NCBI RefSeq assembly: GCF_009905375.1
Contig: NC_133649.1
Location: 231,669,792 to 231,733,791 of the forward strand
Origin: Apium graveolens
Taxonomy: Eukaryota; Streptophyta; Magnoliopsida; Apiales; Apiaceae
DNA: 64,000 nucleotides
Direction: 5' to 3'
Position numbers and translations under genes: made by a program. Positions 9,776 through 62,603 of this stretch are shown in pieces; position 1 is the first letter of the stretch, and each line of letters starts with the position of its first letter. The notes beneath the pieces were generated by a model, which saw only the letters and a list, made by a program, of their open reading frames with translations, was not told the origin of the DNA and searched no databases.

Positions 9776-11957
9776 TATAACAACTCATATATCTTTATAC
9801 TATTTAAATGTGTCATTGTTGATTAATAACCAAATAAAATATGTGTATTGGTTTTGACCGCTATGTGTTATTTTTTTATAATCTATGTGTGATTTATGGT
9901 GCACAGGGTTGTTCGCTTAATTAATTATTGAGTAGTACTGAATTGTTTTCACCTTTAAAAGTCGATTTAATGCAACTTGATTTGCATAAATATTTGGAAT
10001 GTCTCTAAAATATTTTTTATGGTTTTATAATTATAAAAATTATTTTTGGGATTTTATAAAAGTTAGAAATCAATATTTCATCAATTATTTAGCCATGTAT
10101 GATTTTATGATTGCATTTATATGTAAAATCCGTACTTAATTCCAGAATTCTTCAAAAATTATGAAACTCATATTTATTTAAGTTTGGAATATTCCGAGAA
10201 TTTTAAAATTATTTTAGAAATTTCGGAATGGTGATTTATTGTAGTTGTTGTTGTTGTGAAATTTATGTTGTGATGTCGAATTGCTTCGACTGGTTAGACG
10301 ATAAACAAAGGAAGTGCTGCCCGATTTCCGGGAAATCAAACTACAAAAATACGGAAGCGTATCCGGTAATTATCGGGAGGTCGAGCAAATATATAGATAT
10401 ATATACCTTTTATACGAAACTCGATTGTATGTTGTGGTGGAATAATTTTCTAAAATCGATAACCCTGATTTCGTAAAATTACGAGACGTATTTTCTGGAA
10501 ACGAACACCGAACCGATTTTCGGGAACGTGAGCCCTAATTGTTGTGTGTGTTATTATAATATAAATAAGTACGAGTCGGGATGTGTTATTGTATGGGTAG
10601 GTTGTTAGTGAAGATACGTTAAGCATACCTGGTCATCTAATGTAGGGTATCTGGACTCTGTAGGTTCTAGTTGAAGGACTCCAGAAGTGATATCGAAATA
10701 AAGCTGACCTAGTGATCGGTCGATAAGTCGGATCCAGGATAGTCTGATAGTAAGGCGATAAAGCAGAGCGTCCAAGTCAGTCTAAGGTCAATCGGTATTA
10801 GTTGTAAAGCTCTGCAAGGCAAGTACCCCTGACCATACTCTTGTGGTTCAGTATATATGAGTAATTGTTTTTTTATTCTCGTAATGGAACAGAAACATTT
10901 TAAGGTACGTATCCCCTGTATTTGAAAATGTTGTTTAAAATTATGTTTTGGGGAAAAGTAACTTCTGGAAGCACCTACCTCTAAACGTGATTAAAATGGA
11001 AAGAAGTTTTGAATAGTGTGTTGTGACAGAATGGTTTTAAAAAGAGATATGTGACAGTGATTTTGGAAACTGGATAAGAGAAGGTTTTGATCCACCTATG
11101 TCGTGGAATGTTTTTATCCACCTATGTCGTGGAACTTTGGAAAGAGTAAAAAGGGAATTCAGTTGATCTATTGGAATTGAGTAGGTGTAAGTGGCTAATT
11201 CGGTTGGGCGCTATATTTGACCGATTAGTCCATCGCTGGGGAAAAGACCTAGCTAGTCTTTTCCCAAGTTCCGGAACACATTCTTTATTCTGGATGACCG
11301 TTAGTCGCTGTCCGGTGAGGGTAGACTAATCAACTATCTTCACATGTTGAACATCCAATAGATTTGATTGATTCAGTTTTAAACTTGTTTAACAAATCAA
11401 CTTGTTGAGACAGATGATTTGAAAATGAAATAGCATGCTAAGATTTAACTTTGGTATTTACACACAGCACACTACTACGTTTGTTTTGTTGATAGCATGC
11501 AAGTTTTGAATATCTAGTTTATAAATTTTTACCATGTGTTGCAAATGAGCTATAATCTCTGTTCATGTCACTGTTTTATCATAAACTATTTTACTTGTTA
11601 TTCATATAGTGGTATTGCTGAGCAAATGTTTGCTCACCCTGGAAGAATGTTTTATATATGTATTGCAGATGCCTAGGAGATTCTTCCGTGATAGTCGGGA
11701 AGAGTTTTTGTTACTTCCGTGTCAGGCTTCTCTGAGGTAGTTGTGTTGAACCAAAGATGGTCTATTGAGTTGTTGTATTAAGTTAGTTGTGTCAGATTGA
11801 CTTGTGTAAGTTGGTGTTGTAATAGTTGTAACCTTTATACCTAAACCTGGAAAAGATCCTGGTAAAAGGGTCGTGGTTATATTTTATCATTGAATTATTT
11901 ATCTTATGGTTGTTGTTAATGACGTCAACCCCTGACCCCGGGGTTGATGCCGTCACA
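9776..11957 (+). repeat. 5' LTR of gypsy-1
   Basis: It runs from TATAACAACTC to CCGTCACA. It contains AAG|GCAAGT (10816-10824), CTCAC (11633-11637), an acceptor-like TTGCAG before ATG at 11669, a second donor-like GAG|GTAG at 11737, a TGACGTCA palindrome (11920-11927) and a CCCCGGGG palindrome near the end. A 20-bp word ccacctatgtcgtggaa is repeated near 11095 and 11120. Compared with the 3' copy it lacks about 46 bp near 10727. It also lacks the CT-rich leader block present in the gypsy-2 and gypsy-4 LTRs. Confidence 0.92.
10819..11668 (+). other. Predicted GC-AG intron within the gypsy-1 5' LTR
   Basis: The donor is AAG|GCAAGT, the consensus for plant GC donors. The acceptor is TATTGCAG, followed at once by ATG (11669). 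A branch-point-like CTCAC lies about 32 nt before the acceptor. The following exon candidate, 11669-11736, ends CTGAG|GTAGTT. In the 3' LTR the donor persists (17519-17524) but the acceptor has become TTGCAA. This is inferred from motifs only; no transcript was seen. Confidence 0.55.
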
Positions 11958-11959
11958 GT

Positions 11960-11971
11960 TGGTATCAGAGC
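11960..11971 (+). other. Primer-binding site of gypsy-1, tRNA-iMet type
   Basis: TGGTATCAGAGC lies just past the LTR end (CACA, then GT). It matches the initiator methionine tRNA complement used by most plant gypsy and copia elements. Confidence 0.92.
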
Positions 11972-13461
11972 TACAGGTTTGAGTCCCTGATTTAGGTTAG
12001 GAATAGAGTCAAAAGAGTACGTGAAGGTTTATATCTAAATGTGAGTCAGCAACTCAATCAGAGGAGCGAGTCTATGAGTTTAGTCAAGGTTTTCAGAGAC
12101 GTAACCTTGAAATCTATTGAGGATTGGCTGGAACTACCCTAGCCTAGAGTACGGTTCCTTCGTGTATATATATATTGTTGGTAAGCTTCGATAGAGACTT
12201 TTAGTTTTCCTCTCGAGAAAAACAAGTCTGATCGCGAGAATTCAGTTTTTGTGCGGATCCTTGGTGTGTCAGATTTAGAGACACCCATATTATCCCTAAA
12301 TATAGCATTTTCGATGTCAAGGGATGTTGATGGACCAAGTGTGTGACCTCGGTGAGTTGGGACAATATGATAATAGTCGGTGGTTGCTATGACAGCCAAG
12401 TTCCGTGAAATACGGGGATCAGTACTGTTGTTATATCTTAAATCTTAAATGCATTTTTTGAGACATTTTTGTTTCCCAGAATGAATGTTTGTTTCCCGAT
12501 AAGTTGCTTATTTATCTGCAAGGAAGTCAAATTTGAAGTAAGTAACTTAGGTTTCTGTTGATCCCATTATTAATCAGATTTCTCCCTCCCTATTTGTGAA
12601 TTTTCTATTTAAACCTTGCTTCTTTCCTCGGTTATTCTATCGGATGATTGAGGCAAACAATGCACATGATTTGACTGTTTGTCTGTGTGACAAAGGGTCT
12701 GGTGGGACGCCACCGAATTATGTGTTATGACCGTATGGTACTAAGACTGGCCATCTTCTTCACGATTTCTTCTTATTTGATTCACCTGAGTTGGAAATTT
12801 CATATTCTGTAATAATGAATTTCTGCGATTAGATGGTCCTCGTTATTGAGAGCAAATAAGAGTGACTGTCGGGAAGAATGAGAGTCCTATATCAAGATCT
12901 TATTTAAGAATAATGGTAACCGCGAGAGTTCAGGATCTGACGATGGAGTTATAGCCTCGGGAAAAGTGAATCAGTGGTTGATGAATCACTTGTGGGTGAA
13001 AAGAAATCATCTCTAGAGGAATGGTTGGTTGAAATTTGGACTATGGTGCCTTGAAGAGTCCCGCTTTCCTTAATCCGACCTGATTTACCAGTTTGATCTA
13101 TGTAATTGGTGGTTGATATAGCCAGCCAAATCTTGTAGTATATCAGATTAGTGTTGATGTGGTAATAAAGCAGTGACGGGAAGTTAGTCAGTTGTTGATG
13201 TATTAAGGAGCCATGCTACGGTGATTAGTTTCTTTATATTTCAGTTTTTCTGTACTGTTGTTGATTCTGCTACTATCATTCTTGCTATTGTTGCTAGTGC
13301 TGCTAATCTAGATTTCTTTTGTAAATAGACCCCGATACTAAAGACATGGGTACTGTGATTGGGCAGCATTTTCCTGATATAGGTGCACCATTTAAATAGT
13401 GATATCTTTTGTCAAATATTTCTTTATGTTTTGAATAAACTCATTTATATCTTACAGGAAG
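11972..13461 (+). other. Gypsy-1 leader with eroded upstream ORF
   Basis: About 1.5 kb lies between the primer site and gag. Around 12170-12300 it aligns loosely with the start of the proline-rich upstream ORF of gypsy-2 (shared ctcgrgaaa and gcggayccttgg words), but no open frame remains. It ends with a pyrimidine-containing stretch and CTTACAG four bases before the gag ATG, an acceptor-like arrangement also found in gypsy-2. Confidence 0.6.
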
Positions 13462-14640
13462 ATGCCACCCAAGAAAGCTACCCAGTCTAAAGAAAATAGT
13501 AGTAGTTTTGCGGAGGATCCAACTATAAATGAAATTCTAGACTTGTTGCGCCAGCAGCACCAATAACAGTTGTAGTTAATCCAACAGGTTCAGCAACAGC
13601 AACAGCAAGGAGTGAACCAAAGTGCTAGTTTCAAATCCTTTCAGAATGTTAACCCTCCTGAGTTTAAAGGTGAATCTAATCCAATAGGTTCTGGAGCATG
13701 GTTAATGGAGATGGAGAAAGCTTTCAATCTTGTCCAAGTAAGTGATAATCTTAAGACTTATTATGCAAGCTACTTTTTAAAAAATGAAACGAGTTACTGG
13801 TGGGAGTCAACCAGATCGTTAGAAGGAGAAGGCCATGTTCCATGGGCTAGGTTTACTGAGTTGGTTTTGGAAAAGTATTTCCCAGATTGTGTGCGGAGTC
13901 AAATGGAGATTGAGTTTCTAGAATTGAAGCAAGGAGATAGAAGTGTAGCTGAGTATGAGGCTAAGTTCACAAAGTTGGCTAGGTTTATACTAGATTATGT
14001 ACGCTCTAAAGCTCAGAAGGCAAGGAGGTTTCAATAAGGATTGAAGCCTGAAATTCATAGTGGAGTGGTGGCATTGCAACTCAAGACGTATCCTTCCGTA
14101 GTTCAGGCCTCCTTAGTAATTAAATTTGATCAGAAGTTAGCTGCTAGAGAAAAAGAAGATAGGAAACAAAAGATAGATGGTATGGAAGAAGCATCAGGTC
14201 AAGAAGAATCCAGCCAGAAGTCTCAGAAAAAGGTTGGAAGGAGTAAGAATAAAGAATTTAGAGGGAAAAGTATTTCTTTAAACAGAATTAGTAACACCTC
14301 ATCCGGCCCTAATCAAGCGAAGTCGATTAAGTCGCCTATATCGGAGTGTAAGCAATGTGGTAAGAGGCATGGTGGAAGGTGTAAGGCAAATAGTGAATGT
14401 TTCAGGTGTGGATAGAAAGGACACTACGCGTCAGAATATAAGGTGGAAAATCCAGGAGTCGCCTGTTACAACTGTGGCAAGGTGGGGCATGTTGCCAAGA
14501 ACTGTAGAAGTGCTTCTCGAGATAGCATGGGAGGTGGTGCATCAAAAGGTTTGACGTCCAGTACAGCCAAGGCTAAGACTTATACTATGAGTAAAAGATC
14601 AACTACTCAAGACCCTCATAAAGAACCAGGGCAATGATTG
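13462..14640 (+). pseudogene. gag: Gypsy-1 gag polyprotein, broken by stops
   Basis: This is the structural protein of the retrotransposon particle. The ATG at 13462 starts MPPKKATQSK, like gypsy-2 gag. A short Gln-rich stretch precedes the retrotransposon gag domain (13612-14037), with PPEFKGESNP, YWWEST and FPDCVRSQMEIEFLELKQG. Three zinc-knuckle-like motifs follow: CKQCGKRHGGRC, CFRCG broken by a stop, and the intact CYNCGKVGHVAKNC (14464-14505). In-frame stops occur at 13564, 13573, 14035 and 14413. At 14035 the aligned gypsy-2 codon is CAA. Protease sequence is not recognisable downstream. Confidence 0.88.
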
Positions 14641-16410: not shown

Positions 16411-16420
16411 GAATCGTTTT

Positions 16421-16433: not shown

Positions 16434-18661
16434 TATAACGACTCGTATATCTTTGTACTATTTAAATGTGTCATTGTTGATTAATAACCAAATAAAATAT
16501 GTGTATTGGTTTTGACCGCTATGTGTTGTTTTTTATTATCTATGTGTGATTTATGGTGTACAGGGTTGTTCGCGTAATTAATTATTCAGTAGTACTGAAT
16601 TGTTTTCACCTTTAAAAGTGGATTTAATGCAACTTGATTTGCATAAATATTTGGAATGTCTCTAAAATATATTTTATGGTTTTATAATTACAAAAATTAT
16701 TTTTGGGATTTTATAAAAGTTAGAAATCAATATTTCATCAATTATTTAGCCCTGTATGATTTTATGATTGCATTTATTTGTAAAATCCGTACTTAATTCC
16801 AGAATTCTTCAAAACTTATGAAACTCATATTTATTTAAGTTTGGAATATTCTGAGAATTTTTAAATTATTTTGGGAATTTTGGAATGGAGATTTATTGTA
16901 GTTGTTGTTGTTGTGAAATTTGTGTTGTGGCGTCGAATTGCTTCGACTGGTTAGCCGATAAACAAAGGAAGTGCTGCCCGATTTCCGGGAAATCAAACTA
17001 CGGAAATACAGGAGCATATCCGGTAATTATCGGGAGGTCGAGCGAATATATAGATATATATACCTTTTATACGAAACTTCATTGTATGTTGTGGTGGAAT
17101 AATTTGCTAAAATTCAATAACCCTGATTTCGTAAAATTACGAGTATACATATTTTCTGGAAACGAACACCGAAACCGATTTTCGGGAACGTGAGCCCTAA
17201 TTTTTTTGTGTGTTATTATAATATGAATAAGTACGAGTTGGGATGTGTTATCGTATGAGTAGGTTGTTAGTGAGGATACGTCAAGCATACCTGGTCATCT
17301 AACGTAGGGTATCTGGACTCTGTAGGTTCTAGTTGAAGGACTCCAAAAGTGATATCGAAATAAAGCTGACCTAGTGATCAGTCGATAAGCGTAGTGAGGT
17401 TCCAAGCGAAGGACCTGAACATTAAAGTCGGATCCAGGATAGTCTGATAGTAAGGCAATAAAGTCGAGCGTCCAAGTCAGTGTAAGGTCAATCGGTATTA
17501 GTTATAAAGCTCTGCAAGGCAAGTACCCCTGACCATACTCTTGTGGTTCAGTATATATGAGTAACTGTTATTTTATTCTCGTAATGGAACAGAAACATTT
17601 TAAGTTACGTATCCACTGTATTTGAAATTGTTGTTTAAAATTATGTTTTGTGGAAAAGTAACTTCTGAAAGCACCTACCTCTAAACGTGATTAAAATGGA
17701 AAGAAGTTTTGAATAGTGTGCTGTGACATAATGGTTTTAAAAAGAGATAGGTGACAGTGATTTTGGAAACTGGATAAAGAGAAGGTTTTGATTCACCTAT
17801 GTCGTGGAATATTTTGATCCACCTATGTCGTGGAACTTTGGAAAGAGTAAAAAGGGAATTCGGTTGATTAATTAGAATTGAGTAGGCGTAAGTGGCTAAT
17901 TCGGTTGGGTGCTCTGTTTAACCGATTAGTCCAGCGTTGGGGGAAAGACCTAGCTAGTCTTTTCCCAAGTTTCGGAACACATTCTTTATCCTGGATGGCC
18001 GTTAGTCGCTGTCCGGTGAGGGTAGACTGATCATCTATCTTCACCCAATAAACATCCAGTAGATTTGATTGATTCAGTTTTAAACTTGTTTAACAAATCA
18101 ACTTGTTGAGACAGATGATTTGAAAATGAAATAACATGCTAAGATTTAACTTTGGTATTTACAAACAGCACACTACTACATTTATTTTGTTGATAGCATG
18201 TAAATTTTGAATATCCAGTTTATAAATGTTTACCATGTGTTGCAAATGAGCTATAATCTCTGTTCCTGTCACTGTTTTATCATAAACTATTTTACTTGTT
18301 GTTCATATAGTGGTACTACTGAGTAAGTGATTGCTCACCCTTGCAGAATGTTTTATATATGTATTGCAAATGCCCAGAAGATTCTTTCATGATAGTCGGG
18401 CAGAGTTTTAGTTCCTTCCATGTCAGGCTTCTCTGAGGTAGTTGTGTTAGACCAAAGATGGTCTATTGAGTTGCTGTATTAAGTTAGTTGTGTCAAATTG
18501 ACTTGTGTAAGTTGGTCTTGTAATAGTTGTAACCTAAATCATACCTAAACTTGGAAAAGATCTTGGTAAAGGGGTCGTGATTATATTTTATCATTGAATT
18601 GTTTATCTTATGGTTGTTGTTAATGACGTCAACCCCTTACCCCGGGGTTGAGGCCGTCACA
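16434..18661 (+). repeat. 3' LTR of gypsy-1
   Basis: It runs from TATAACGACTCG to GCCGTCACA and is followed by the TATAC duplication at 18662-18666. It matches the 5' LTR along its length, with scattered substitutions and a 46-bp block near 17387-17432 that the 5' copy lacks. It carries the donor GCAAGT (17519-17524) and TGACGTCA (18624-18631). A (TA)n run (about 16110-16140) lies upstream in the internal region, not in this LTR. Confidence 0.92.
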
Positions 18662-20207: not shown

Positions 20208-20267
20208 ATCTCCCCCAATTTCTGAGAAGATTGTTTATCACAAATTAATGCTTGATAACAAGACTAA
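20208..20267 (-). other. Polypurine tract and 3' end of the minus-strand SIRE-like element
   Basis: The minus strand reads AAATTGGGGGAGAT directly before the LTR. The remaining bases are untranslated 3' sequence, cut at ACTAA (20263-20267) by gypsy-3. The sequence resumes at 32084. Confidence 0.85.
20263..20267. repeat. Left target-site duplication of gypsy-3 (ACTAA)
   Basis: ACTAA precedes the 5' LTR and is repeated exactly at 32084-32088. Confidence 0.92.
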
Positions 20268-22723
20268 TGTAATAACCCCAAAATTTTGAACTTTTTGGTA
20301 ACCCTTATGAATAGTATTTTAGCTGATATTGCTGAATAAGAAAACTGTTCATGCCACACTATGTAGGGTTTCTTTTATGGATATTATGAGATTTTATTGG
20401 TACTCTATATGGTATATAAGTGTATGTAAAGATCGTCAGAATCCAAATTTGAACCTTTTGATTTTTCCCGAAAATCCACCAGATATCGAAAGAATTGAGT
20501 ATAAGGTAACAGGATAAAAAGGATTTAAATTCAAGGATTTTAATAGAGGATCATAAAAAGGATTATAATGTATTGAGAAAGGTTAAGGGAACCTAAGTAA
20601 TAAGATCCCGGGTATGATCCCTCAAACGAGAAACGAGAACGAAAGTTAAGCGAACCGTATAACAGATCAGCGGTCATTAGGCAAACAATTAGGAAGTTAA
20701 TCAAGGAGGTTAGGGATGATGAGGTCATCCAACCATTAAGAAGAGGGCAGGTAAGGGATGATGACATCACAAAGTGACATAAGCATGACATAAGGGGAAG
20801 GAGGTGTGGTTGATTTAAAACCACACAAAGTTCAAGGTTAGAAAGGTAATTAACCAAAAACAAAAAAAAAACAACCAACCAAAATAAATCAAAGCAAAAC
20901 ACAAAAATCATTTCACTTCTTCAAGCATTTGCTCTCGGCTTTTCTTCATTCCAAGAAGAAAAATTTTCAAAATTCAAGTTCCAAGCTTCCTAAATTGGTA
21001 AGATAATTCTCTAGTACTCCTTATGCATAGTTATGGCTATTCTATAAGTTTAAGCCTCCAAATCATTCACAATCTTCTCCAAGAAATCAATGAAGAAGAT
21101 AATGAATAGTGATTTCAAGATTTTTAACTTGATTTTTCTTGTTTTTCCTTTAAGATCTAAGCATCCCTAAGACATCTCAAGGCTTCTTAAGGCTTCCTAG
21201 CTACTCACATCACTTCAAGGAAGGTATATCATCTCCAAACCCTAGATTTACTTTGTATATTAGGATGATTTTGGTTGTTATGGTAAAAGAGTAGCTTGAT
21301 GCTTGTTGGTTTAGAGTTTGGGTTGGAATGGTAGTGAATTGAATGTTGAAATCTTATTAAATGGTTAAAGTACTTAAGTATAGTTTAAATTCAAGTTTAA
21401 GAATAAGTATAATTGTTAATATTGAGTTGATTGGGGCTGTTATGATGTAGTGTGGATGGATGTTGGTTGTATGAATGAATTGGGCTTGATTGGTGATTGA
21501 ATTGGAATCGTATAAAATTGGGAAATCGTGTAAACATAGCCGTCGTAATGTCCGATTACTTTAGACTGCTTTTGTTCATAACATTAGGACCTGAGAACTC
21601 CCTGCTAGGTTTTGACCATTGCCATGTTTAGATAGTTCATGTTACGAGCTTCATTTTGATATGAGGTTCGTTTGTTTCCGATGTACGGTTTAGGAGAAAC
21701 GGCCGTTTTAAGTAACGACGTTTCGCGAACGAACCATTACCCCTTGCCTTACTTTGAAACATAGGTTAAGGACCTTAAAGGACTAATTGGAGTATGAAAC
21801 AATTATGTTAAGTGGTTTAGGCATTGTTAAGACACTCGCGAAATAATCGCCTTAAAACTCATAATGGTTAAATTATTAAAAATGGTGGAGCCGAGGGTAC
21901 TCGAGTGACTTAAGAGAATCAGTAAGCGCAAAGCGAGCGTTAGAGTCTAATTTGGTTAAAGTATAGATTTACAAGTGACTTTGATTTAATTCCAACTCAC
22001 ATGTTGTTTATAGGTTACCAGACTCGTCCCGAGCCATTTGTAACCCCCAGTCGCTCAGGCAAGTTTTCTACCCGTATAACTGTTATTGTGATGTATATGT
22101 GTATATGCATGATCTTGCGATAAATGCATATTTGTTATTAGCAAATTCTTGCGATATATTGTAGCATGTGATATGGTATATATGCATGCCTGTTTCATAT
22201 TCTTGATTTATATATCTGTTGGTTCAAATGCTTATAGTTGCATAATACCTATGCTAGAAATAAGCAGTATTTGAGTTTACCCTTAGTATAGGGGATCAAA
22301 AGGTGAACATATTTCTAAACCGGGAGTCGATGTTCCCGAGTATATTATATATATATATTAAATATATATATATATATATGGATATAGTTTTCAAAACTAT
22401 TGATCGAATAAGGTTTATTCGATAACGTTATTTTATTTAATGAATATTATTTGAATTCATTCGAGGACTTATGACTCTGTTTATTCTATTTAATGATTAT
22501 TAATTGGATATTCATTTGAGGATGTAAGACTCCGATTATTTTATTTAATGAATATTATTTATAATATTCATTCTAGGTATTATGACTCCGCTTATTTTGC
22601 TAAATAATATTCTTTATTTTATTAAAGAATAATGCTTCGATAATCAAACTTATTTTCGATTATTCAAATAAAGATAGTACTTTCATATAAGTATATCTTT
22701 GGTTATTTAATATCCATTTCAAG
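20268..22723 (+). repeat. 5' LTR of gypsy-3, truncated on its inner side
   Basis: It starts TGTAATAACCCC, as does the 3' LTR, and aligns with 28189-30655. Homology stops at ccatttcaag (22723), where the upstream ORF is joined. It keeps AG|GCAAGT (22057-22064), a (TA)n stretch near 22345-22378, and a three-unit tandem repeat at about 22432-22610. The last 1.4 kb, including the acceptor and U5 end, is missing. Confidence 0.9.
22432..22612 (+). repeat. Three-unit tandem repeat of about 60 bp in the gypsy-3 LTR
   Basis: Each unit reads tatttaatgaatattatttg, then a complementary attcattcgagg, then tatgactccg and ttatt. The first half can pair as an AATGAATATT...AATATTCATT hairpin. The same array is at about 30360-30535 in the 3' LTR. 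Confidence 0.75.
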
Positions 22724-28188: not shown

Positions 28189-31100
28189 TGTAATAACCCC
28201 AAAATTTTGAACTTTTTGGTAACCCTTATGAATAGTGTTTTAGCTGATATTGCTGAATAAGAAAACTGTTCATGCCACACTATGTAGGGTTTCTTTTATG
28301 GATATTCTGAGATTTCATTGGTACTCTATATGGTATATAAGTGTATGTAAAGATCGTCAGAATCCAAATTTGAACCTTTTGATTTTTCCCGGAAATCCAC
28401 CAGATATCGAAAGAATTGAGTATAAGGTAACAGGATAAAAAGGATTTAAATTCAAGGATTTTAATAGAGGATCATAAAAAGGAATATAATGTATTGAGAA
28501 AGGTTAAGGGAACCTAAGTAATAAGATCCCGGGTATGATCCCTCAAACGAGAAACGAGAAACGAGAACGAAAGTTAAGCGAACCGTATAACAGATTAGCG
28601 GTCATTAGGCAAACAATTAGGAAGTTAATCAAGGAGGTTAGGGATGATGAGGTCATCCAACCAATAAGAAGAGGGCAAATAAGGGATGATGACATCACAA
28701 AGTGACATAAGCATGACATAAGGGGAAGGAGGTGTGGTTGATTTAAAACCACACAAAGTTCAAGGTTAGAAATGTAATTAACCAAAAACAAAACAAAAAA
28801 AACCAACCAAAACAAATCAAAGAAAAACACAAAAATCATTTCACTTCTTCAAGCATTTGCTCTCGGCTTTTCTTCATTCCAAGAAGAAAAATTTTCAAAA
28901 TTCAAGTTCCAAGCTTCCTAAATTGGTAAGATAATTCTCTAGTACTCCTTATGCATAGTTATGGCTATTCTATAAGTTTAAGCCTCCAAATCATTCACAA
29001 TCTTCTCCAAGAAATCAATGAATAAGATAATGAATAGTGATTTCAAGATTTTTAACTTGATTTTTCTTGTTTTTCCTTTAAGATCCAAGAATCCCTAAGA
29101 CATCTCAAGGCTTCTTAAGGCTTCCGAGCTACTCACATCACTTCAAGGAAGGTATATCATCTCCAAACCCTAGCTTTACTTTGTATATTAGGATGATTTT
29201 GATTGTTATGGTAAAAGAGTAGCTTGATGCTTGTTGGTTTAGAGTTTGGGTTGGAATGGTAGTGAATTGAATGTTGAAATCTTATTGATTGGTTAAAGGA
29301 CTTAAGTATAGTTTAAATTCAAGTTTAAGAATAAGTATAATTGTTAATATTGAGTTGATTGGGGCTGTTATGATGTAGTGTGGATGGATGTTGGTTGTAT
29401 GAATGAATTGGGATTGATTGGTGATTGAATTGGAATGGTATAAAATTGGGAAATCGTGTAAATATAGCCATCGTAATGTCCGATTTACTTTAGACTGCTT
29501 TTGCTCATAACATTAGGACCCGAGAACTCCCTGCTAGGTTTTGACCATTGCCATGTTTAGATAGTTCATGTTACGAGCTTCGTTTTGATATGAGGTTCAT
29601 TTGTTTCCGATGTACGGTTTAGGAAAAACGACCATTTTAAGTAACGACATTTCGCGAACGAACCATTACCCCTCGCCTTACTTTGAAACATAGGTTAAAG
29701 ACCTTAAAGACTAATTGGAGTATGAAACAATTATGTTAAGTGGTTTAGGCAGTTGGTAAGACACTCGCGAAAGAATCTCCTTAAAACTCGTAATGGTTAA
29801 ATTATTAAAAATGGTGGAGCCGAGGGTACTCGAGTGACTTAAGAGAATCAGTAAGCGCAAAACGAGCGTTAGAGTCTAATTTGGTTAAAGTATAGATTTA
29901 CAAGTGACTTTGGTTTAATTCCAACTCACATGTTGTTTATAGGTTACCAGAATCGTCCTGAGCCATTTGTAACCCCCAGTCGCTCAGGCAAGTTTTCTAC
30001 CCGTATAACTGTTGTTGTGATGTATATGTGTATATGCATGAGCTTGCGATAAATGCATATTTGTTATTAGCAAATTTTTGCGATATATTGTAGCATGTGA
30101 TATGGTATATATGCATGCCTGTTTCATATTCTTGATTTATATATCTGTTGGTTCAAATGCTTATAGTTTCATAATACCTATGCTAGAAATAAGCAGTATT
30201 TGAGTTTACCCTTAGTATAGGGGATCAAAAGGTGAACATATTTCTAAACCGGGTGTCGATGTTCCCGAGTATATTATATATATATATATATATTAAATAT
30301 ATATATATGGATATAGTTTTCAAAACTATTGATCGAATAAGGTTTATTCGATAACGTTATTTTATTTAATGAATATTATTTGAATATTCATTCGAGGACT
30401 TATGACTCTGTTTATTCTATTTAATGATTATTAATTGGATATTCATTTGAGGATGTAAGACTCCAATTATTTTATTTAATGAATATTATTTATAATATTC
30501 ATTCGAGGTATTATGACTCCGCTTATTTTGCTAAATAATATTCTTTATTTTATTAAAGAATAATGTTTCGATAATCAAACTTATTTTCGATTATTCAAAT
30601 AAAGATAGTACTTTCATATAAGTATATCTTTGGTTATTTAATATCCATTTCAAGTATAAGTTTTAAAACTTCTACTTCGATTATTTTTATAAGGATTATC
30701 TTTATAAGAATATTATTTAAATTATAATATTCAGATATTTCTAATATATCGGGACTGATTTATTTTAATAAATCAGCAGTACTCCAAACATTCTTAAAAA
30801 TATTTTCGAGTCTTCAAAATGATTTTTAAAAGTTAGGGCGGATCCCAAAACTCATTTTTATATTTAAGATCCTCCTTTCAAAGGGGATTTAAATACTCGC
30901 TCAAAACCTGAGGGATCCGGCTCTGTGGTGTATTTTATATTCACAACGAGGTTGTTGTTTTGACAAATGAAATGATTACTTACCCAACGTTCGGGAAGTA
31001 AGTCCATCTAATTGAGTCGGCATAAGCGACAGGCCGGGGTACGGTCTATCGAAGTGTAAGTGGCTGGGTGGCAGTCCATCAACGCGTAAGAGGCCGGGTG

Positions 31101-34339: not shown

Positions 34340-34565
34340 GTCGGTCGGAATAAAAATAAAATGACACGTATCCAATAAGTTGGACACGTGCCGTGTGGTT
34401 AAGTTGGGTGTTGACTTTCTCTTTTACTCCTGATAAACATCAAATCTTTGGTCTCTCATCTCTCGGCCTCTCTCAAATTCTCTCTATTTTTCCCTCATAA
34501 AAATCTTTTCCTATCCTCTCTCCTCTACTCTCCTATTCGTGTCTCTTTCCCTCTTCCTCTAGGTG
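34340..34565 (+). promoter_or_regulatory. Putative gypsy-2 promoter: G-box and CT-rich leader
   Basis: GACACGTATCCAAT (about 34362) and the perfect G-box GGACACGTGCC (core 34385-34390) precede a leader of CTCTC and TTCTC tracts at about 34440-34560, typical of plant 5' untranslated regions. The block is conserved in LTR3 (G-box 44526-44531). No canonical TATA box is clear. Exact transcription start is unknown. Confidence 0.5.
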
Positions 34566-36580: not shown

Positions 36581-36593
36581 TGGTATCAGAGCC
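36581..36593 (+). other. Primer-binding site of gypsy-2, tRNA-iMet type
   Basis: TGGTATCAGAGCC lies two bases past the LTR end, the usual initiator-Met-tRNA complement. Confidence 0.93.
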
Positions 36594-39422: not shown

Positions 39423-42414
39423 GACAAGCAATTTCTTTCTATCTTGGAAGCGAAGAAGTTATTGAGACAAGGTTGTGAAGCATACTTAGCCCATGTTATG
39501 GACATTGAGAAGAGAATACCCGAATTGGAGAAGATTTCGGTAGTTAATGAATTTCCAGATGTGTTTCCAGATGAGTTACCAGGATTACCACCAGATCGGG
39601 AGATTGAGTTTTCTATTGATTTGATTTCGGGAGCAGAACCAGTTTCAAAGGCACCTTACCGTATGGCCCCAGTAGAAATGAAAGAACTAGCTAAACAACT
39701 TCAGGAACTTTTGGATAAAGGGGTAATCAGACCAAGTGTATCCCCGTGGGGTGCGCCAGTGTTGTTTGTGAAAAAGAAAGATGGAAGCATGAGATTGTGT
39801 ATTAACTACAGGGAATTGAATAAGTTAACCATCAAGAATGAGTACCCCTACCCAGGATTGATGATTTATTTGATCAACTGAAGGGAGCATGTTGTTTTTC
39901 CAAGATCGACTTAAGATCGGGCTATCATCAGTTGAAGATCAAGCCTGAAGATATACCAAAGACTGCTTTTCGAACCAGATATGGCCATTACGAGTTTCTA
40001 GTAATGTCATTCGGGTTGACTAATGCGCCAACAGCTTTTATGGATTTAATGAACCGGGTGCATAAGGAGTACTTGGATAAGTTTGTTATTGTATTTATCG
40101 ATGACATCCTCATCTATTCAAAGACCAAAGACGACCATGCCGGACATCTAAGGATTGCATTACAAAGGGTGAGAGAAAAACGATTATATGCTAAGTTCTC
40201 AAAGTGTGAATTTTGGTTGGTGGAAGTCCAGTTTTTAGGTCATATAGTTGGTAAGGATGGAATTAAGGTAGACCCTGCAAAGATTGAAGCGGTATCCAGA
40301 TGGGAACAACCAAAGACCCCTACGGAAATTAGAAGTTTTCTTGGATTAGCAGGCTACTACCGAAGATTTGTGAAGGACTTTGCCAAGATCGCAACCCCGT
40401 TAGCCAAGCTGACCCGGAAGAATGAGAGATTTGTTTGGACGGAGAAATGTGAAGAAAGTTTCCAAGAGTTAAAGAAGAGACTAGTGACCGCACCAGTGTT
40501 AGCATTACCCGATGAAACCGGGAATTTCGTAATTTACAGTGATGCTTCTCTTAAAGGATTAGGCTATGTGCTCATACAACATGATAAGGTTATTGCGTAT
40601 GCGTCTAGGCAGTTAAAGCCCCATGAGCAGAAATATCTAATTCATGATCTTGAGTTGGTGGCTATAGTGTTTGCTTTGAAGTTATGGCGTCATTACTTGT
40701 ACGGAGAGAAATGTGATATCTACACGGATCATAAAAGCTTAAAGTATATATTCACCCAAAAGGACTTAAACATGAGACAAAAGAGATGGTTGGAGTTGAT
40801 TAAGGACTATGACTGTTTAATTAACTACACCCAGGTAAGGCTAATGTGGTAGCTGATGCCCTTAGTAGAAAAGAAAAATTAAACATGGCCCGTATCGCGA
40901 ATGAATTAGCACAGGACTTGGGAAAGATGGAAATCGAAATTCGAGTATCAGGTGAAAACCGGGAATCGTTATACGAGATTATTTTCCAGCCAGCGTTAAT
41001 GGAAAAGATTAAAAGATGTCAAGAAGGAGTTATGGAACGAGAATTGGAAGATCTGACAGGAGAAATATTATGTACTCAAAAGGATAACCGCGGTCTATAC
41101 AAGTTTTCCTCTCGCATCTGGATTCCTAGCGTAGCAGAAATGAAGAATGAAATATTGCATGAAGCGCACAATTCTAGGTTTTCTATTCACCCTGGTAGCA
41201 CGGAGATGTACCAAGATTTAAAGAAACAATTCTGGTGGCCAGGAATGAAGAAAGAGATTGCGGAGTGGGTTAGCAAGTGTCACGTGTGTCAAAAAGTAAA
41301 AGCAGAGCACCAAAGGCCCAATGGATTGTTGCAGCCTCTAGAAGTTCCACAGTGGAAGTGGGAAGAAATTGCAATGGATTTTGTGGTAGGCTTGCCGAGG
41401 ACAAGATTGAATCATGATGCCATTTGGGTGATCATTGATAGAAGGACCAAGTCAGCGCATTTCCTCCCAATCAATGAAAAGTATTCTCTGGAAAAACTAG
41501 TTAAAATATATTTAGATGAGATAGTTTCCAAGCATGGGGTACCTGTGTCTATAGTATCAGATCGAGATCCAAGATTTAATTCAAGGTTTTCGACAAAGTT
41601 TCAAGAGTATTTAGGAACTAAATTAAATATGAGCACCGCTTATCATCCTCAAACTGATGGCCAAAGCGAGAGAACGATTCAGACGATCGAAGATATGTTA
41701 AGGGTATGTGCTTTGGATTTCAAGGGAAGTTGGGACGATCATTTACCATTAATAGAATTTTCCTATAATAACAGTTACCATGCCAGCATTGGAATGCCAC
41801 CCTACAAAGCTTTATATGGATGAAAGTGTAGGTCACCTCTATACTGGGATGAGGTAGGAGAAAAGAAAGTGTTAGGACCTGAATTAGTGCAGCGGACAAA
41901 AGAAGCAGTGGTGTTAATTCGGAAAAGATTGGAAGCCGCGCAGAATAGACAGAAAAAGAATGCAGATTTGCATCAAAAAGACATAAGTTTTGAAACAGGA
42001 TCATTGGTGTTACTAAAAGTTTCGCCATGGAAGGGATTGGTTCGATTCGGTCAGAAGGGTAAATTGAGTCCGAGATATATAGGACCATTTGAAGTTCTGA
42101 AGCAAATAGGGAAAATGGCATACGAGATAGCTTTACCCCCGCAGTGGAAGCATATCCATAATGTATTTCATGTGTCTATGTTGAAGTCGTACATTCCTGC
42201 CTCGAATCAAGTAATTGAATATGAACCGATCGAGCTTCAATCGGATTTATCCTATGTGGAGCAGCCAATCCAGATATTAGATCGTAAGGAGCGTGTACTT
42301 AAAAATAAATCTATTCCTATAGTTAAAGTACTTTGGAGAAACCCTAGGGTAGAAGAGTCTACCTGGGAACTAGAATCAGATATGCTTGCCAAATATCCTC
42401 ACTTATTTAATTAG
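39423..42414 (+). pseudogene. pol: Gypsy-2 pol: RT, RNase H, integrase, chromodomain
   Basis: Pol follows gag-protease in the same frame after the TAG. Reverse transcriptase includes [16 protein letters not shown], then a one-base loss near 39851, then [10 protein letters not shown] and catalytic FIDDILIYS (40094-40120). RNase H has [13 protein letters not shown] and [12 protein letters not shown] second one-base loss near 40832 precedes [10 protein letters not shown]. Integrase has its HHCC finger (41159-41310), [15 protein letters not shown] and the Glu in [11 protein letters not shown] 41821 replaces the Arg of ALYGRKCRSP. The last 60 residues (YVEQPIQILDRKERVL, VKVLWRN, EESTWELE) are a chromodomain, which in related elements targets integration to heterochromatin. 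Three lesions plus the upstream TAG prevent a single polyprotein. Confidence 0.93.
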
Positions 42415-42454: not shown

Positions 42455-42933
42455 TATAACGACTCGTGTATTTTTATTTTATTTCTAATATTTGGAAGTG
42501 TAATAAAAGTTTAAGTAAATAAATAAAAGGTGTGTATTGATTTTGGCAGCGGTTACTGATTGTTATTTAATTATTTGTGATTTGTTGATATGTGGGATTG
42601 GAATTATGTGATTTATTGGTGAGTTATATGATATTATTTCGCTTGTAAAAGTGATTTTATTGTAATTTTAATTCCATAAATATTTGGGTTGTCTTTAAAA
42701 TTGGTTTTCTAATTTTATAATTTCAATAATTATTTTTAGGACTTTATAAAATTGAGAAATCAATATTTCGTTAATTATTCATTTTTAAATGATTTTTTGA
42801 GCGTGTTAAATGCTAAAATCCATATTTAATTATGGGAATCTTTAAAAATTGTGAAACTTATATTTTATTAAGCTCATATTATTCTGAGAATTTTAAAATT
42901 ACTTTGGGAATTTTCGGGAATCGTTTCAACCGC
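42455..42933 (+). repeat. Truncated 3' LTR of gypsy-2 (LTR2)
   Basis: The first 479 bp match LTR1 from 33519. Homology ends at tttcaaccgc, and the sequence continues directly as SIRE-like DNA that also exists at 32792. The two sequences share only GC at the joint, so this is a microhomology junction. Confidence 0.92.
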
Positions 42934-43658
42934 ATCAACTTGAATTTTTCTTGATTTTATTCCTGAAGTCTTAAAGTGAGTTTTGATTGGAGGTTTGAAT
43001 GAAGGTGTTTTTGATATTTTCTTTAAGAAGACTTGGTTAGTTGTGATAGGTATCTTGAGTATGGAGTTTGCAGTTGGCTTGTATAGGTACTTGGGTTTTT
43101 GAGATTGGACTGATTGAGTGTCTTTTTAGCTAGATTTAGAGGTTTGAGTTTGTGAGATTTGAGTTCCATGGACATTATGTTGTTTTGTAATTCCTTCTCC
43201 GTCCTTCCTTCTTCTCTTACCATCACCTCCTTTCTTTTCTTCCTTCTCATTTTCCTTGTCATCATCCAAGTTATCCTTTGTATTGATTTGAGCCAGAAGA
43301 TTTTTGTTCATCTTTCTTTTGCTCATCATCATCCAAGTTATCCTTTGTATTGATTTGAGTTCTAGGAAACATGGTTTCAGCATTCTTCAGAGATTTGCTC
43401 AAAATCGATCATTTCTTCATCTTCAAAACTCTTGTTCTTCTTGGTCTTCAAATCAGTCTCTAAAGTCATGATCAATCTCAAATTTCCCATGACACAGTGC
43501 TTAGGGATCATGAAGTGTTTGCACCTTTTGGTAGTTGAACATATGTAAGCCACTCCCTTGCTAGGTTGAAGGTAAGCTTCTGAAAATGCAGCTACTTGTC
43601 CCTTTTTGAGTTCATTTAGCAGGAGAATGTCCTCCGGAATCACCCTGTTGACTTTGTT
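42932..43658 (-). pseudogene. Duplicate of SIRE-like env-like segment
   Basis: This is near-identical to 32792-33518, differing at a handful of sites. On the minus strand it carries the same env-like pieces (VIPEDILLLNELKKGQVAAF at the upstream end; a Lys-rich repeat in the middle). It is followed by the same TTGTT and then an LTR start, as in the original. It is part of a tandem duplication, not a second insertion. Confidence 0.92.
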
Positions 43659-46600
43659 TATAACGACTCGTGTATTTTTATTTTATTTCTAATATTTGGA
43701 AGTGTAATAAAAGTTTAAGTAAATAAATAAAAGGTGTGTATTGATTTTGGCAGCGGTTACTGATTGTTATTTAATTATTTGTGATTTGTTGATATGTGGG
43801 ATTGGAATTATGTGATTTATTGGTGAGTTATATGATTTTATTTCGCTTGTAAAAGTGATTTTATTGTAATTTTAATTCCATAAATATTTGGGTTGTCTTT
43901 AAAATTGGTTTTCTAATTTTATAATTTCAATAATTATTTTTAGGACTTTATAAAATTGAGAAATCAATATTTCGTTAATTATTCATTTTTAAATGATATT
44001 TTGAGCGTGTTAAATGCTAAAATCCATATTTAATTATGGGAATCTTTAAAAATTGTGAAACTTATATTTTATTAAGCTCATATTATTCTGAGAATTTTAA
44101 AATTACTTTGGGAATTTTCGGGAATTGTTTCAACCGCGCGTCGTCTCGTTATTTGTTAAAAAAGCGGGTACAAACTGTATTTCAGAAATTATTTTAAAAT
44201 TATGAAAGTTACATTTTTACGTACTCCGGGATATTTCTGACATTTTAAGATTAACATGGATTTATTTTGATGTTTTTTTATAACCGCACCTTATTTCGTA
44301 CGATCGCTAAGTCCGGGTATTTATTACATTTCAAAAATTCATTTTAAAATTTTGAAATTTATATTTTACTAAACTTGGGATGTTTACAATATTTTATGAT
44401 TATTTTGACAACGTTTTTATTAAAATTTATTCTCGAGTTATATCATTAGCGATAGATTAAAGCGGTGGGAAGGGCTTATAGTCGGTCGGAATAAAAATAA
44501 AATGACACGTATCCAATAATTTGGACACGTGCCGGGTGGTTAAGTTGGGTGCTGCCTTTCTCTTTTACTCCTGATAAACATCAAATCTTTGGTCTCTTAT
44601 CTCTCGGCCTCTCTCGAATTCTCTCTGTTTTTCCCTCATAAAAATCTTTTCATGTCCTCTCTCCTCTACTCTCATGTTCGTGTCTCTTTCCCTCTTCCTC
44701 TCGGTGCTTTCGGTCTCCGCCATTCTTGTTTCTCCGGCTTGTTTCCTCCGGTGAGCCGCCATTTATTTGGCTTGGCTGGTTCAATTTATATATGCATATG
44801 CATGTAAATGTGTATATGATTATGTGTTGTGTGTGTGCGTTTGTGTTGTGTGTGTGTGTCTGTGTGTGTGTCTGTGTTATTTGTGTGTTGGCCGTGATGG
44901 TGGCGTTGTGCTTCTCTATTCCGTTTGGTCTGTGCTATTGGGCTCTTTGTGGTTTGGGCTTGCAGTTTGGGCCGGATTATTCGGGCCTTTACTGTTGGGC
45001 CTATTTACGCAGTTGGGCTTGGTTATTATAAATTGATTTTTTATTCAATTTTCTGCAGGGAAATAAATGAGTGATATTCGTGAAATAAAATTTTTCATTG
45101 CGGGGAAATAATATTAATCGATATAATTTATTCGGGAACCCGTATTATATCGGGCGCCAATAAATTGTGCCGCCGTTGACGATGAACTTCGGTGAGTCGA
45201 CGGTGGACGGTGATGACGATGTTCTGAGTCCTAAATATTTTAATAAATAAAATTTGTATAAAGTATGTTCAGGACTAAAATTTAGTTATGTGACGATTCA
45301 AATTGATTTTGTTGGGATTTGACGTCGATTGATGTTTCGACGGGTAGACCTATAAACAGAGGAGTCGCTGTCCAATTTTTCTAAAGAATTACCCTAAATT
45401 ATAAATCGAGTACATATATCTCGTTTAATACAAATTAAACTCTGATTATTATGTGCACCATTATTAAGTATATGTTATTGATATTAATATACTTGCGAGT
45501 CGAAAAATTATAGTGTTGGGTAATTAGTTAGTGAGGAAAAGTCAAACATAATCGGTTGTCTAACCTAGGATATTTCGATTTCGTAGGTTCGAGTCAAAGG
45601 ACCCGGTAGTTCAAGTCAATTAGAGTTAAGCCAAAGTTAGTGCAAAGCTTCGCAAGGCAAGTACCCCTGAACTAATCTTTTACAGTTCAGTATATATGAA
45701 TAGTTGTTTATTTAAAATATGTATTGGAACAGAACATTTTAAGTTACGTATTCCTCGTATTTAAATATGTTTTGTTAACTGAGGTTTTGGGGAAAAAGTA
45801 ACTTCTGAAAATGCCTATCTCTAGATTATGATTAAAATTAAAAAGGGATTTTAGAATGTGTGCTGTAATGGTTTAAAAAGAGATAGGTGTAAATGGTTTT
45901 GGAAACTGGATAAACATAAATCAGATATTGGATGGTCAGTTGGCGTAAGAGATCCGTTATTAGATAACGGCCCAGCGTGTTTGCGTAAGAGGATAAGTCG
46001 GATGCGCGCACTGGTAGTCCGCTTAGTCCAGCATGACAAAGACCTAGCTAGTCTATGAGTTCCGGAACGAAATTTGTGGTGGGATAGACTAATCAGCTAT
46101 CCCTAGAATTCATCCTCTTTTATATATCTGATAAAGGTTGAATTGTTTATAGTCCCCATAACGGGACTGGTGATTTATTGGTCCAGCAATGGACACTGGT
46201 TTTGGAACGGAAATAGCATGCTAAAATTGAACTCTGGTATTTTTACACAGCACACTACAGATGATGTTATTTTGCAAAGCATGCTAGTTTTGATATCCAG
46301 TTTATACCTATTTTACGGATTTCTCGTATATCAGTATAATATATGTAACCTATATTGTTTTATACAACCTGTTGCTGGTTATTCATATAGAGGTACTGTT
46401 GAGCAATGGATTGCTCACCCTTGCAGTTTGTTTTGTATTTATTTATTGCAGATGTCTAGAAGACCAGGTCAGCGTAGAGTGTCAGCCTCCGGTCCCGGCT
46501 CCTCTGAGGTAGTTTGTATCAGGCCGTGAGGTCTGATGAGTTGTTGTAATAAGTGAGAGTGTCTGGTTTTGAATAAGTTAGTGTGTGTGTTGTAACCTAA

Positions 46601-46731
46601 ATAATACTTGAACCTGTTTCGGTTCCTGGTTGGGGTCGTATATTATAATAAAGTTTATTTAGCATTTTTTGTTATAATTTAGCATTTTTTTGGTGACGTC
46701 AGCCCCTGACCCCGGGGTTGAGGTCGTCACA
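43659..46731 (+). repeat. Second full LTR at the gypsy-2 locus (LTR3, solo-like)
   Basis: It runs from TATAACGACTCG to GGTCGTCACA, 3073 bp, with no internal region following. It keeps CCG|GTGAGC (44751), TTCTGCAG (45058), AAG|GCAAGT (45654-45662), CTCAC (46414-46418), TTGCAG|ATG (46451/46452), GAG|GTAG (46506-46512) and TGACGTCA (46694-46701). A TG-rich microsatellite lies near 44830-44890. The right flank is TTTAG and SIRE-like DNA. Confidence 0.92.
44751..45058 (+). other. Predicted leader intron 1 in gypsy-2 LTR3
   Basis: The CT-rich leader ends CCTCCG|GTGAGC, and the acceptor is ATTTTCTGCAG|GG after a T-rich stretch. The interval is 308 bp, TG/T-rich like plant leader introns. Gypsy-4 has the same arrangement with a perfect CCG|GTAAGT donor. 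In LTR1 the donor is mutated. Confidence 0.55.
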
Positions 46732-60683: not shown

Positions 60684-61041
60684 GTAAGTCGCCGCCATTT
60701 GGTTGGTGGCTCCGGTTTGTATATATATACATAGTCTTTGTGTATATATGTATATGGTTATGATTGTTGTGGTGTTTTCTTCCCCCTTCTGTGCCACCCC
60801 TGTTCTGTTCTTGTCATTTTATTCATGTTTATTTCGGCCATTTTCCGGCCGCATGTGTGAGTCGTGTGTGTGCGTGTGTGAATCATGTGTGTGTGCGTCT
60901 GTTTGTGGCTGCTGTTGTCGCAATTTTCCGGCCACCGGTGTATTTTGCGGTGACCCTGCCTCAAGTCTTGTTTGGCTTCGATGATGTTGCCTGTTACAGT
61001 GTTGTTCTAATTGATTAAATTTTATTATTGTATTTCTGCAG
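60684..61041 (+). other. Predicted leader intron 1 in the gypsy-4 LTR
   Basis: A perfect plant donor TTTCCG|GTAAGTCG follows a CT-rich leader. The acceptor is TTGTATTTCTGCAG|GA. The interval is 358 bp and T/TG-rich. The same layout is in gypsy-2. Confidence 0.6.
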
Positions 61042-61939
61042 GATTTAATTGATTAATGTTTCGTGATTTAAATAAATTCGTGCGGGATTATAATAATTAA
61101 TCGGTGAAATTCGTGTCGGATGTCCGTTATAAACGGGAACCCGCGAATTTTACTGCCATCAGTGATGAGCCTCAGCGAGCCGACGGTGGACGGTGATGAT
61201 GTGTATCTGAGTCCTACGATTATAAATTAAATAAATTAGTTCGAGAAATTAGGTTTAAGATGAATAATAATAATTAATAACTGAATTGTATCGGTGATTG
61301 GGATTGCGAGTTGTGATTGGTTGTTGTGTTTTAAATGGATTAGTTGTGGTGGATTTGACGTCGAATTATTTCGACGGGTAGGCCGATAAACAATGGAGAC
61401 GCTGCCCGATTTTCGGGAAATTAATTCCGAAAAAACAGGAACGTAACCTATAATTATTGGAGACGTCGAACAAGGATATGTAATTGAATTTTACGAACCT
61501 AATTACGTGTTGAGACATGATATATTATAAACGATCAATTACCCTACTATTTTAAAAATAACGAGTATACGTAATTTCGGAAAATAAATACCGAACCGAG
61601 TTTCAAAGATGTGAACCATAATTGCTATGTGTATTTCAATAATATATAAATACGAGTCAGGACTTCATATCGAATGGGTAGATTTTATAATAAGGATGTG
61701 TTAAGCCTAAACGATTATCTGAATTAGGGTATTTCAACCATGTAGGTCTTAGTCAGAAGACCCGAGGATTGACATCGGACTAAGAATGATCTAGTAGTTA
61801 GTCATCGAGCTTGGCAAGGTTCCAATCAAAGAACCTGAGTGTTTGGATCATATCCAGAATAGGGTAGTGGTTTGACGATAAAACCGAACGTTCAAGTCGA
61901 ACCAAAGTCAACCAGTAATGGTGGTTAAAGCTTATCCAG

Positions 61940-62603
61940 GCAAGTATTCCTAATTTTTCTCGTAACACACTGATATTACTTCAATTCTATTCTAAGTTCA
62001 GAATAGTTAAATGTTTTATTTTTCGCTGCAATTACTCTTAATTATGCAAGTTCCTTTCATTATTATTCCTATATTATCGATTGCTCTCTTGAGCAAATAC
62101 CCATTCTTTCGGGTTATTTGCGAACCCTGAATTGGGATGTTTTGAAATCAAAATGATTTGACATCAAAATACTCTACGGGCTGGATGGTTACTGTGAGGG
62201 CCAGTGATAAGCTGGACCCTATGGGTCGAGGATGGACCGGACCCTTGGGCGATATTGCCTGGGTACCTGAATGGATCTATATAGTGAGATATAAATTTGC
62301 ACTGTATCCTAGCTGATCAGCAGGATATAAGTGTGAACTAGTGTCCAGTCTAATTTATTGTTGATCGCCATTAACAGCATTCTTTCTCGAAAGGTTTTAT
62401 GATTCCAAACCTGGATAAAACCCTGATTCAGGAGATGGATTTGGGAATTGCTCGTCACTTCTATTTTATAATTCAGGGCTGGTAACAGCCAATGTTTTTC
62501 CGGAAAAGTACTTTTGATATTGATACTTGGAAATCATTTATATACTTGCTGGGCATTTTTGGCTCACTCTTGCTTTGTAAATTCTTATTTCTTTCAGAAA
62601 CAG
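61940..62603 (+). other. Predicted GC-AG intron in the gypsy-4 LTR
   Basis: The donor is ATCCAG|GCAAGT. CTCAC (62563-62567) lies 31-37 nt before two possible acceptors, TTTCAG (62597) and AAACAG (62603). The downstream exon candidate has no clear ATG frame in this copy. The conservation with the other LTRs is the main evidence. Confidence 0.5.

Follow-up and report, generated by a model that had tools for sequence, protein, structure and literature searches.

A putative GC-AG intron within the long terminal repeats of Tekay/Del-type retrotransposons in celery

Retrotransposons at the celery locus

We analyzed a 64,000-nt stretch of the celery (Apium graveolens) genome, hereafter the window, whose retrotransposons appear to carry an intron inside their long terminal repeats (LTRs). 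All coordinates refer to the window, and genome counts refer to the 3.33-Gb genome. Self-comparison and inspection of termini resolved the window into nested LTR retrotransposons: copia element E1, gypsy elements E2, E3, and E4, and the LTR E5. We estimate, from sequence and gene models, a probability of roughly 0.7 that the LTRs of these Tekay/Del-type elements contain intron 1 of an accessory messenger made by splicing. In the list below and throughout, a slash within a sequence word marks the splice site.

190..1053, + strand: LTR fragment split by E1 (the 536 fragment), donor AAG/GCAAGT at 535-543
1054-8246: copia element E1
9776-18661: gypsy element E2
9776..11957, + strand: E2 5' LTR (Ty3/gypsy), target-site duplication (TSD) TATAC, primer-binding site (PBS) at 11960-11971
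16434..18661, + strand: E2 3' LTR, GC donor at 17516-17524, acceptor mutated to GCAAATG (18361-18372)
20267-32083: element E3
20267..22723, + strand: E3 5' LTR, 3' part missing, donor CAG/GCAAGT at 22056-22064, TSD ACTAA
28187..32083, + strand: E3 3' LTR, cassette complete
32792-46731: gypsy element E4
32792..36578, + strand: E4 5' LTR (Tekay/Del-type chromovirus), start truncated, PBS at 36581-36592
37797..42414, + strand: E4 gag-pro-reverse transcriptase (RT)-RNaseH-integrase (INT), with SH3_Tf2-1/chromo matches, frames interrupted
42455..46731, + strand: E4 3' LTR with an internal 479-nt duplication, donor at 45654-45662, acceptor at 46451
61009..62879, + strand: E5 LTR, donor CAG/GCAAGT at 61937-61945, GCTCACTC at 62562, acceptor at 62597

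E4 is classified as a Tekay/Del-type chromovirus, a name based on its domains, LTR length, and 5' additional open reading frame (ORF). The domains found were gag, RVP_2, RT, RNase H, an integrase zinc domain, SH3_Tf2-1, and a weak Chromo match (7.9e-4, 19.7 bits, under the 25.1 cut-off), in the Ty3/gypsy order with a chromodomain-bearing integrase. As in Tekay/Del elements, the LTRs are long (2.2-4.3 kb) and the PBS is TGGTATCAGAGC, which starts 3 nt beyond the LTR end in E2 and E4. The only interior remnants seen in E3 were integrase-like (27561-28149) and short gag-like (24173-24659) stretches. The sequence-only reading of this DNA had treated the gypsy LTRs as four different families; they are not four independent events, since the LTRs of E2, E4, and E5 share patches of 67-80% identity and are related to one another. 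No blastn match to these LTRs was obtained for E3 or the 536 fragment. The E4 3' LTR contains a 479-nt segment twice (42455-42933 and 43659-44137, 99.4% identical, about 1.2 kb apart), and the E4 5' LTR has a single copy (33519-33997).

A GC donor site in the LTRs

The donor word AGGCAAGT occurs nine times on the + strand of the window and never on the - strand. Shuffled sequences contained 1.48 copies on average over both strands, and nine were reached in 0/100 shuffles. Eight of the nine sites are inside LTRs, at 10817/17517 (E2), 22057/29986 (E3), 35501/45655 (E4), 61938 (E5), and 536 (fragment); the remaining match (55067) reads, by eye, as copia-type coding sequence and was dropped as chance. 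The seven AG/GCAAGT sites listed in the sequence-only reading were all correct, although the E2 3' LTR copy at 17517 had been overlooked. Under a Markov model of each LTR, the probability of at least one AGGCAAGT per LTR was 0.009-0.039.

AG/GCAAGT matches the consensus of plant GC-AG introns. We scored GT and GC candidates in the scanned part of each LTR with a plant donor matrix. AG/GCAAGT was the top donor-like site in 6/6 LTR copies (both of E2, both of E4, the E3 3' LTR, and E5), each with 87-158 candidates. The best GT site in these copies scored at most 4.2, except for 5.6 in one E2 copy. TATA-like words were located 141-305 nt upstream of the donor site in five of the six sequences scanned, with none in E3. 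With the transcription start guessed from these words, the predicted intron 1 contains 22 (E2), 20 (E4), and 11 (E5) ATGs, and the predicted exon 1 contains 2, 1, and 5, respectively.

Plant-type retrotransposon DNA was also found at 12 loci (L001-L012) in records labeled as bacteria (Streptomyces, Mycobacterium, a Trichormus metagenome-assembled genome, and others), apparently as contamination in most. One of them, L002, encodes an RT 69% identical to that of E4 and has a Tekay-like LTR. Its top donor of 109 is CAG/GTAAGT, scored 8.01 versus 3.43 for the next one, 141 nt after a TATA-like word; this single foreign LTR was matched to the celery donor place by layout, not by alignment. An exchange between GT and GC within a donor that is perfect at all other positions is predicted for a splice donor and not for a promoter motif. 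Three scans of viral contigs yielded nothing usable: two confirmed no relative, and the third gave 22 stretches with a PBS pattern. The tblastn search of plasmids returned three distant records, and that of phages returned none.

Branch point, hairpin, and acceptor

Downstream of the donors, the LTRs contain a branch-point word and an acceptor.

10816..10824, + strand: E2 intron 1 GC donor AAG/GCAAGT, intron from 10819
11619..11639, + strand: E2 branch-point hairpin TGAGCAAATGTTTGCTCA and following bases
11666..11671, + strand: E2 intron 1 acceptor CAG/ATG
29985..31678, + strand: E3 donor to acceptor, with CAG/GCAAGT, GCTCACTC at 31641-31648, and acceptor CAACAG ending at 31678
35503..36296, + strand: E4 intron 1, GC-AG, 794 nt, wholly in the LTR, donor AAG/GCAAGT at 35500-35508, acceptor TTGCAG

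The AG/GCAAGT donor, the branch point, and the AG acceptor follow in the order of a U2-type GC-AG intron. GCTCACYC occurs seven times in the window, six of them within these LTRs, and a count of seven was reached by 1/100 shuffles. The CTCAC and CAG words were found where the sequence-only reading had placed them. For E5, the acceptor proposed at 62603 is better placed 6 nt upstream, at 62597 (TTTCTTTCAG), as suggested by the homologous copies L040 and L077. The predicted introns span about 0.65-1.7 kb. The acceptor directly precedes an ATG in E2 and in E4 (36296), and an ATG lies 9 nt past the acceptor in E3. L071, a relative of the 536 fragment, contains GCTCACCT and CAG.

Usually, GCTCAC forms the 3' arm of a short hairpin, as in TGAGCAAATGTTTGCTCA (E2), TGAGCAATGGATTGCTCA (E4, from 36245), and TGAGCTAGTTAGCTCA (L036). 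The inner pairs vary between copies, and the pairing is retained. The mean stem was 5.6 versus 3.28 (standard deviation 0.30) in shuffles (0/500), based on 15 distinct sites out of 35, with four sites judged not LTR-like kept in the mean. In these shuffles the 40 nt upstream were permuted base by base, and sequences with a mutated GCTCAC were ineligible. Folding resulted in a TGAGC/GCTCA-type stem in nine of ten sequences, not including E3 of the window, with z-scores ranging from -0.7 to -4.5. Regulated splicing from a weak donor, as suggested in the sequence-only reading, is possible, and a branch point enclosed in a hairpin would be compatible with it.

Genome-wide occurrence and conservation

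In the whole genome, the GC form AGGCAAGT occurs 221,163 times and the GT word AGGTAAGT 83,517 times, a 2.6-fold difference. The reversed AGGCAAGT word has 27,967 copies; reversed words are a poor yardstick, as reversed AGGTAAGT has 186,575. The E3-type donor context (35 nt, up to three mismatches) was found in 14,002 copies, with 0 in the reversed controls.

For a closer look, we used the first 60 of 100 listed + strand AGGCAAGT sites, all from one end of one contig (C1). GCTCAC followed by YAG was present downstream of 27/60 sites versus 7/60 on the reverse strand, and a PBS was present at 10/60 versus 3/60. Twenty-one of the 60 sites resemble one of the window LTR families across the site. 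Thirty-nine fell into four clusters (17, 14, 6, and 2) that blastn did not link and that were judged LTR-like; the cluster of six is the least sure, with a branch-point word in one member and a PBS in one. The remaining sites comprised four in a coding repeat and 17 single ones. In an alignment of 16 E3-type sequences (the window copy and 15 others), the branch-point motif and CAG were 98% conserved, compared with 94% between them and 83-84% in the flanks.

Exon A, intron 2, and the additional ORF

Beyond the LTR acceptor of E4, three features follow one another.

36297..36353, + strand: E4 exon A, an ATG start exon inside the LTR, MSRRSGQRRVSASGPGSSE, 57 nt, MSRR..GSSE
36354..36800, + strand: E4 intron 2, GT-AG, 447 nt, spanning the LTR end and PBS, GAG/GTAGTTT..GACAG
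36801..37367, + strand: E4 exon B, body of the 5' additional ORF, 188 codons and a stop

A continuous frame leading from the ATG in the LTR across the PBS was tested and rejected, as it is closed in genomic DNA. In celery gene models, MPRR../MSRR..GSSE runs straight into WPIVISSS.., which in E4 lies 447 nt further on, after CAG and in phase. The frame of exon A behind the LTR acceptor continues only after intron 2, in phase with exon B; together with the junction in the gene models, this suggests that the LTR intron is the first of two introns in an accessory messenger. The models are celery annotations obtained by protein searches (174 proteins), of which 18 matched the exon A patterns. The direct exon A/exon B junction is present in eight of these 18, three contain an additional mini-exon that covers the PBS, and the others differ. 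Nine of the 18 have residues ahead of the exon A methionine, and in seven of the nine this is not the Q expected from an unspliced CAG. Two of those models carry host Pfam domains, P0120 (PF01266) and P0130 (PF00153), so host genes, too, apparently come to use the LTR acceptor.

Exon B has close relatives in celery, carrot, and further contigs, and the carrot model P0145 starts similarly, with MPRT..APIEISS. P0123 (LOC141678321 isoform X2) ends at the E4 exon B end, with GSGSG. Its AlphaFold model is largely disordered (mean pLDDT 65.4), with helices at 146-152, 154-161, 176-195, and 202-224, and no PDB fold match was obtained at E <= 0.001. As a sense ORF between the 5' LTR and gag, disordered with helices, exon B matches the description of the Tekay 5' additional ORF.

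A motif shared with a SUVH-type protein

36975..37022, + strand: SUVH-type motif RRSVLAVRDFPPGCGP in E4 exon B

The ORF core RRSVSAVRDFPPGCGP of P0123 is identical at 16/16 positions to the N-terminus of a celery SRA/Pre-SET/SET protein, a SUVH-type H3K9 methyltransferase (BLASTP E 9e-10), and both proteins contain the RR.VSAVRDFPPGCGP motif. The E4 copy differs from RRSVSAVRDFPPGCGP by one residue. The celery SUVH protein (G000:C7:5051793 region; L096, L101) has three motif copies, two of them diverged, and a cotton relative with the motif, P0174, is named SUVH6-like by its source. P0123 itself contains no SRA, Pre-SET, or SET domain and gave no Pfam match at E <= 0.1. Our literature search retrieved no paper combining Tekay and SUVH and, in the best 10 of 22 matches, none with RDFPPGCG. 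Mimicry of the silencing enzyme SUVH, or binding to a partner of it, would be speculation.

An acceptor next to gag

13455..13464, + strand: E2 gag acceptor-like CAG/GAAGATG, gag ATG at 13462
37771..37799, + strand: E4 gag acceptor-like TTTGTTGTGTTTCAG/GAGAATG, gag ATG at 37797

YAG followed by G, with the gag ATG 3-4 nt on, is found in E2, E4, and the foreign L009. Seventeen models have residues ahead of gag MPPK/MPLK, and in 9/17 this is R or K, as the E4 and E2 gag acceptors would give. With the start guessed as above, an unspliced E4 leader would contain 44 ATGs. These three observations would also suit an LTR donor that mainly joins the gag-ATG acceptor to give a short-leader gag-pol messenger, with the LTR acceptor and exon A as minor products, which is very improbable, as the LTR branch point and acceptor are conserved independently and exon A is in frame into the additional ORF.

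Other repeats in the window

A tandem 422-nt duplication (52975-53817, 97% identical) lies near a copia-type gag ORF. A direct repeat at 58312-59432 / 62879-63995 (73% identity) reads like coding sequence, and its second copy starts where the E5 LTR ends (62879). The AGGTAAGT words in this repeat are apparently codon chance. The 58-64 kb region, with AGGTAAGT and one GCTCACCC, was also considered as an LTR family with a GT donor and was dropped, as it reads like coding sequence by eye.

Alternative explanations and points against the LTR intron

The explanation that survives best besides the intron, and still an unlikely one, is that AGGCAAGT is a promoter or enhancer word. Transcription would then start downstream, with TATATATG about 44 nt later in E2 and E4, a later GT would be the real first donor, and the rest would be as described. 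The best conserved stretch between the E2 and E4 LTRs spans the donor and the adjoining part of the putative intron (10798-11077 versus 35483-35759, about 280 nt, about 78% identity) and includes the shared GTTCAGTATATATGA after the site. By eye, an exon located some 60 nt past the GC donor is used in models P0096, P0116, and P0120; the E2 5' LTR contains a GT donor there, AAG/GTACGT, at 10905. However, the 10905 donor is missing from the E2 3' LTR and both E4 LTRs, and TATATATG is absent from E5 and the 536 fragment. The TATA-like words upstream of the site, which only E3 lacks, and the GT that replaces GC in the foreign Tekay-like LTR also argue for a donor.

It is decidedly improbable that the words are an inherited background of related dead LTRs and the gene models ab initio artefacts. 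The E2, E4, and E5 LTRs are indeed related, the frames of E2 and E4 are broken, and models P0120 and P0130 are fused to host domains. On the other side, LTR-like clusters whose flanks cannot be aligned share the donor word, and several of them also the branch-point motif (sites chosen on the donor), and the branch point and acceptor are conserved above their flanks. The frame also stays in phase over the splice points of intron 2, and carrot P0145 starts with a similar arrangement.

Several observations weigh against an LTR intron. Besides the downstream exon of the three models and the 10905 donor, the first 260 nt or so of intron 1 are the most conserved E2/E4 LTR stretch (78%), which splicing does not explain. 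The LTR parts contained in L009 and L005 have no good donor (best 3.13 and 3.48). In the E2 3' LTR the acceptor is gone (GCAAATG, from 18361), no intact frame for exon A remains in E2, and an in-frame TAG interrupts E4 exon B at 37182. Among the 16 E3-type sequences, GTTCAC occurs in two and TAG replaces CAG in one. The 60 sampled sites were picked on AGGCAAGT and inform on the downstream sequence, not on donor conservation. In a small set of positions found without donor bias, by masked flanks elsewhere in the sampled DNA, the donor was intact in 4/11, some in doubtful register, with C at +2 in 11/11. The gene models are predicted, with a fusion to host domains in two or more of them, and the proteins are uninformative on exon 1 or the GC donor. 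Finally, the Tekay clade was absent among the highly expressed elements of a sunflower survey, as far as its accessible text describes them.

Comparison with known systems

According to the available part of a 2025 review, plant LTR retrotransposons are generally without introns, with exceptions including Ogre and EVADE. Ogre of pea and Medicago is likewise a plant Ty3/gypsy element with a partially spliced intron, described in the consulted part of PMC6317226 as lying between gag-pro and RT-RNaseH-INT and letting the whole polyprotein be translated; intron 1 here is in the LTR instead. In the sections available, EVADE/BARE1 short-GAG, Bagy2 env, and the sunflower Tyran/Varan isoforms produce shorter RNAs by alternative splicing, and their introns are not placed in the LTR. 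MIKKI of rice (Osr29 and a BAJIE solo LTR) uses solo-LTR sequence for a splice; however, in the text at hand it is a single domesticated locus joining two elements. The compared systems are covered, in the parts consulted, by PMC12786077, PMC5599236, PMC11728184, PMC7264820, and PMC7730604, and the accessible text of PMC3059260 gave no match for splicing terms. Among the papers listed by our literature searches, none described an intron lying wholly within an LTR of a plant element, MIKKI being the nearest.

The 5' additional ORF of Tekay is already known. In the excerpts available, sunflower Tekay 13-2, rice RIRE3/RIRE8, and maize Tekay resemble E4 by description, with the same domain type and an extra ORF between LTR and gag that is mostly disordered with helices. 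The difference lies in the start codon and first exon, which here would be in the LTR behind an intron, and in the second intron, which would remove the PBS. The consulted text of the sunflower Tekay paper contains no word beginning with intron or splic.

Additional ORFs were reportedly the subject of a study by Steinbauerova in 2011. The scale differs from that of GC-AG introns in plant genes: here the GC donor word occurs in element copies by the many thousands and outnumbers the GT word across the genome. Retroviruses such as HTLV-1 and foamy viruses use a donor in the R region and produce accessory messengers without the PBS next to an unspliced genome. The celery elements are alike by analogy only; here the whole intron would be in the LTR, its acceptor is immediately followed by a start codon that also lies there, and the donor is of the GC type.

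Proposed splicing of the elements

The sequence provides good support for a GC-AG intron within the LTR, and its splicing is what we infer. The sequence-only reading held that transcripts splice out this intron. That claim gained support from the six of six donors, the GT in the foreign LTR, the conserved block, and the gene models; the purpose of the intron had been overlooked. In our proposal, transcription would start in the LTR, upstream of AG/GCAAGT, and intron 1 (GC-AG, about 0.65-1.7 kb, within the LTR) would be removed via the GCTCAC branch point and CAG. The CAG acceptor, directly ahead of an ATG in E2 and E4, would open a short coding exon in E4-type elements. Intron 2 (GT-AG) would then remove the LTR end and PBS and join exon A in frame to the 5' additional ORF, and the gag-adjacent acceptor would probably yield spliced gag messengers from the same donors. 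Both RNA states would arise from one LTR promoter: unspliced RNA, which keeps the PBS, would serve as the genome, and doubly spliced RNA without the PBS as the messenger. As a messenger without the PBS cannot be reverse-transcribed, the genomic RNA would keep the LTR intron, which would thus survive in new copies; this is a simpler explanation of its retention than a weak, regulated donor. Use of the GC donor, the position of the transcription start, coupling of the two introns, and regulation by the hairpin or the weak donor are likewise presumed from these sequences. The sites, the conservation of branch point and acceptor, the in-phase spliced frame, and the gene models with its junctions are observed.

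A broader idea is tentative, and on balance we doubt it: in a major plant retrotransposon clade, the rare GC donor of the LTR would run a retrovirus-like two-state RNA programme, its balance set by the hairpin, and the accessory protein with the SUVH N-terminal motif may interfere with the silencing machinery or recruit it.

If the LTR intron is real, an abundant clade of plant retrotransposons would hide an intron in its LTRs and make accessory proteins by retrovirus-style splicing. The annotation of LTRs, 5' additional ORFs, and gag starts would change, and chimeric gene models that start at the LTR acceptor would be explained. The shared SUVH motif would then become a question of host and parasite.

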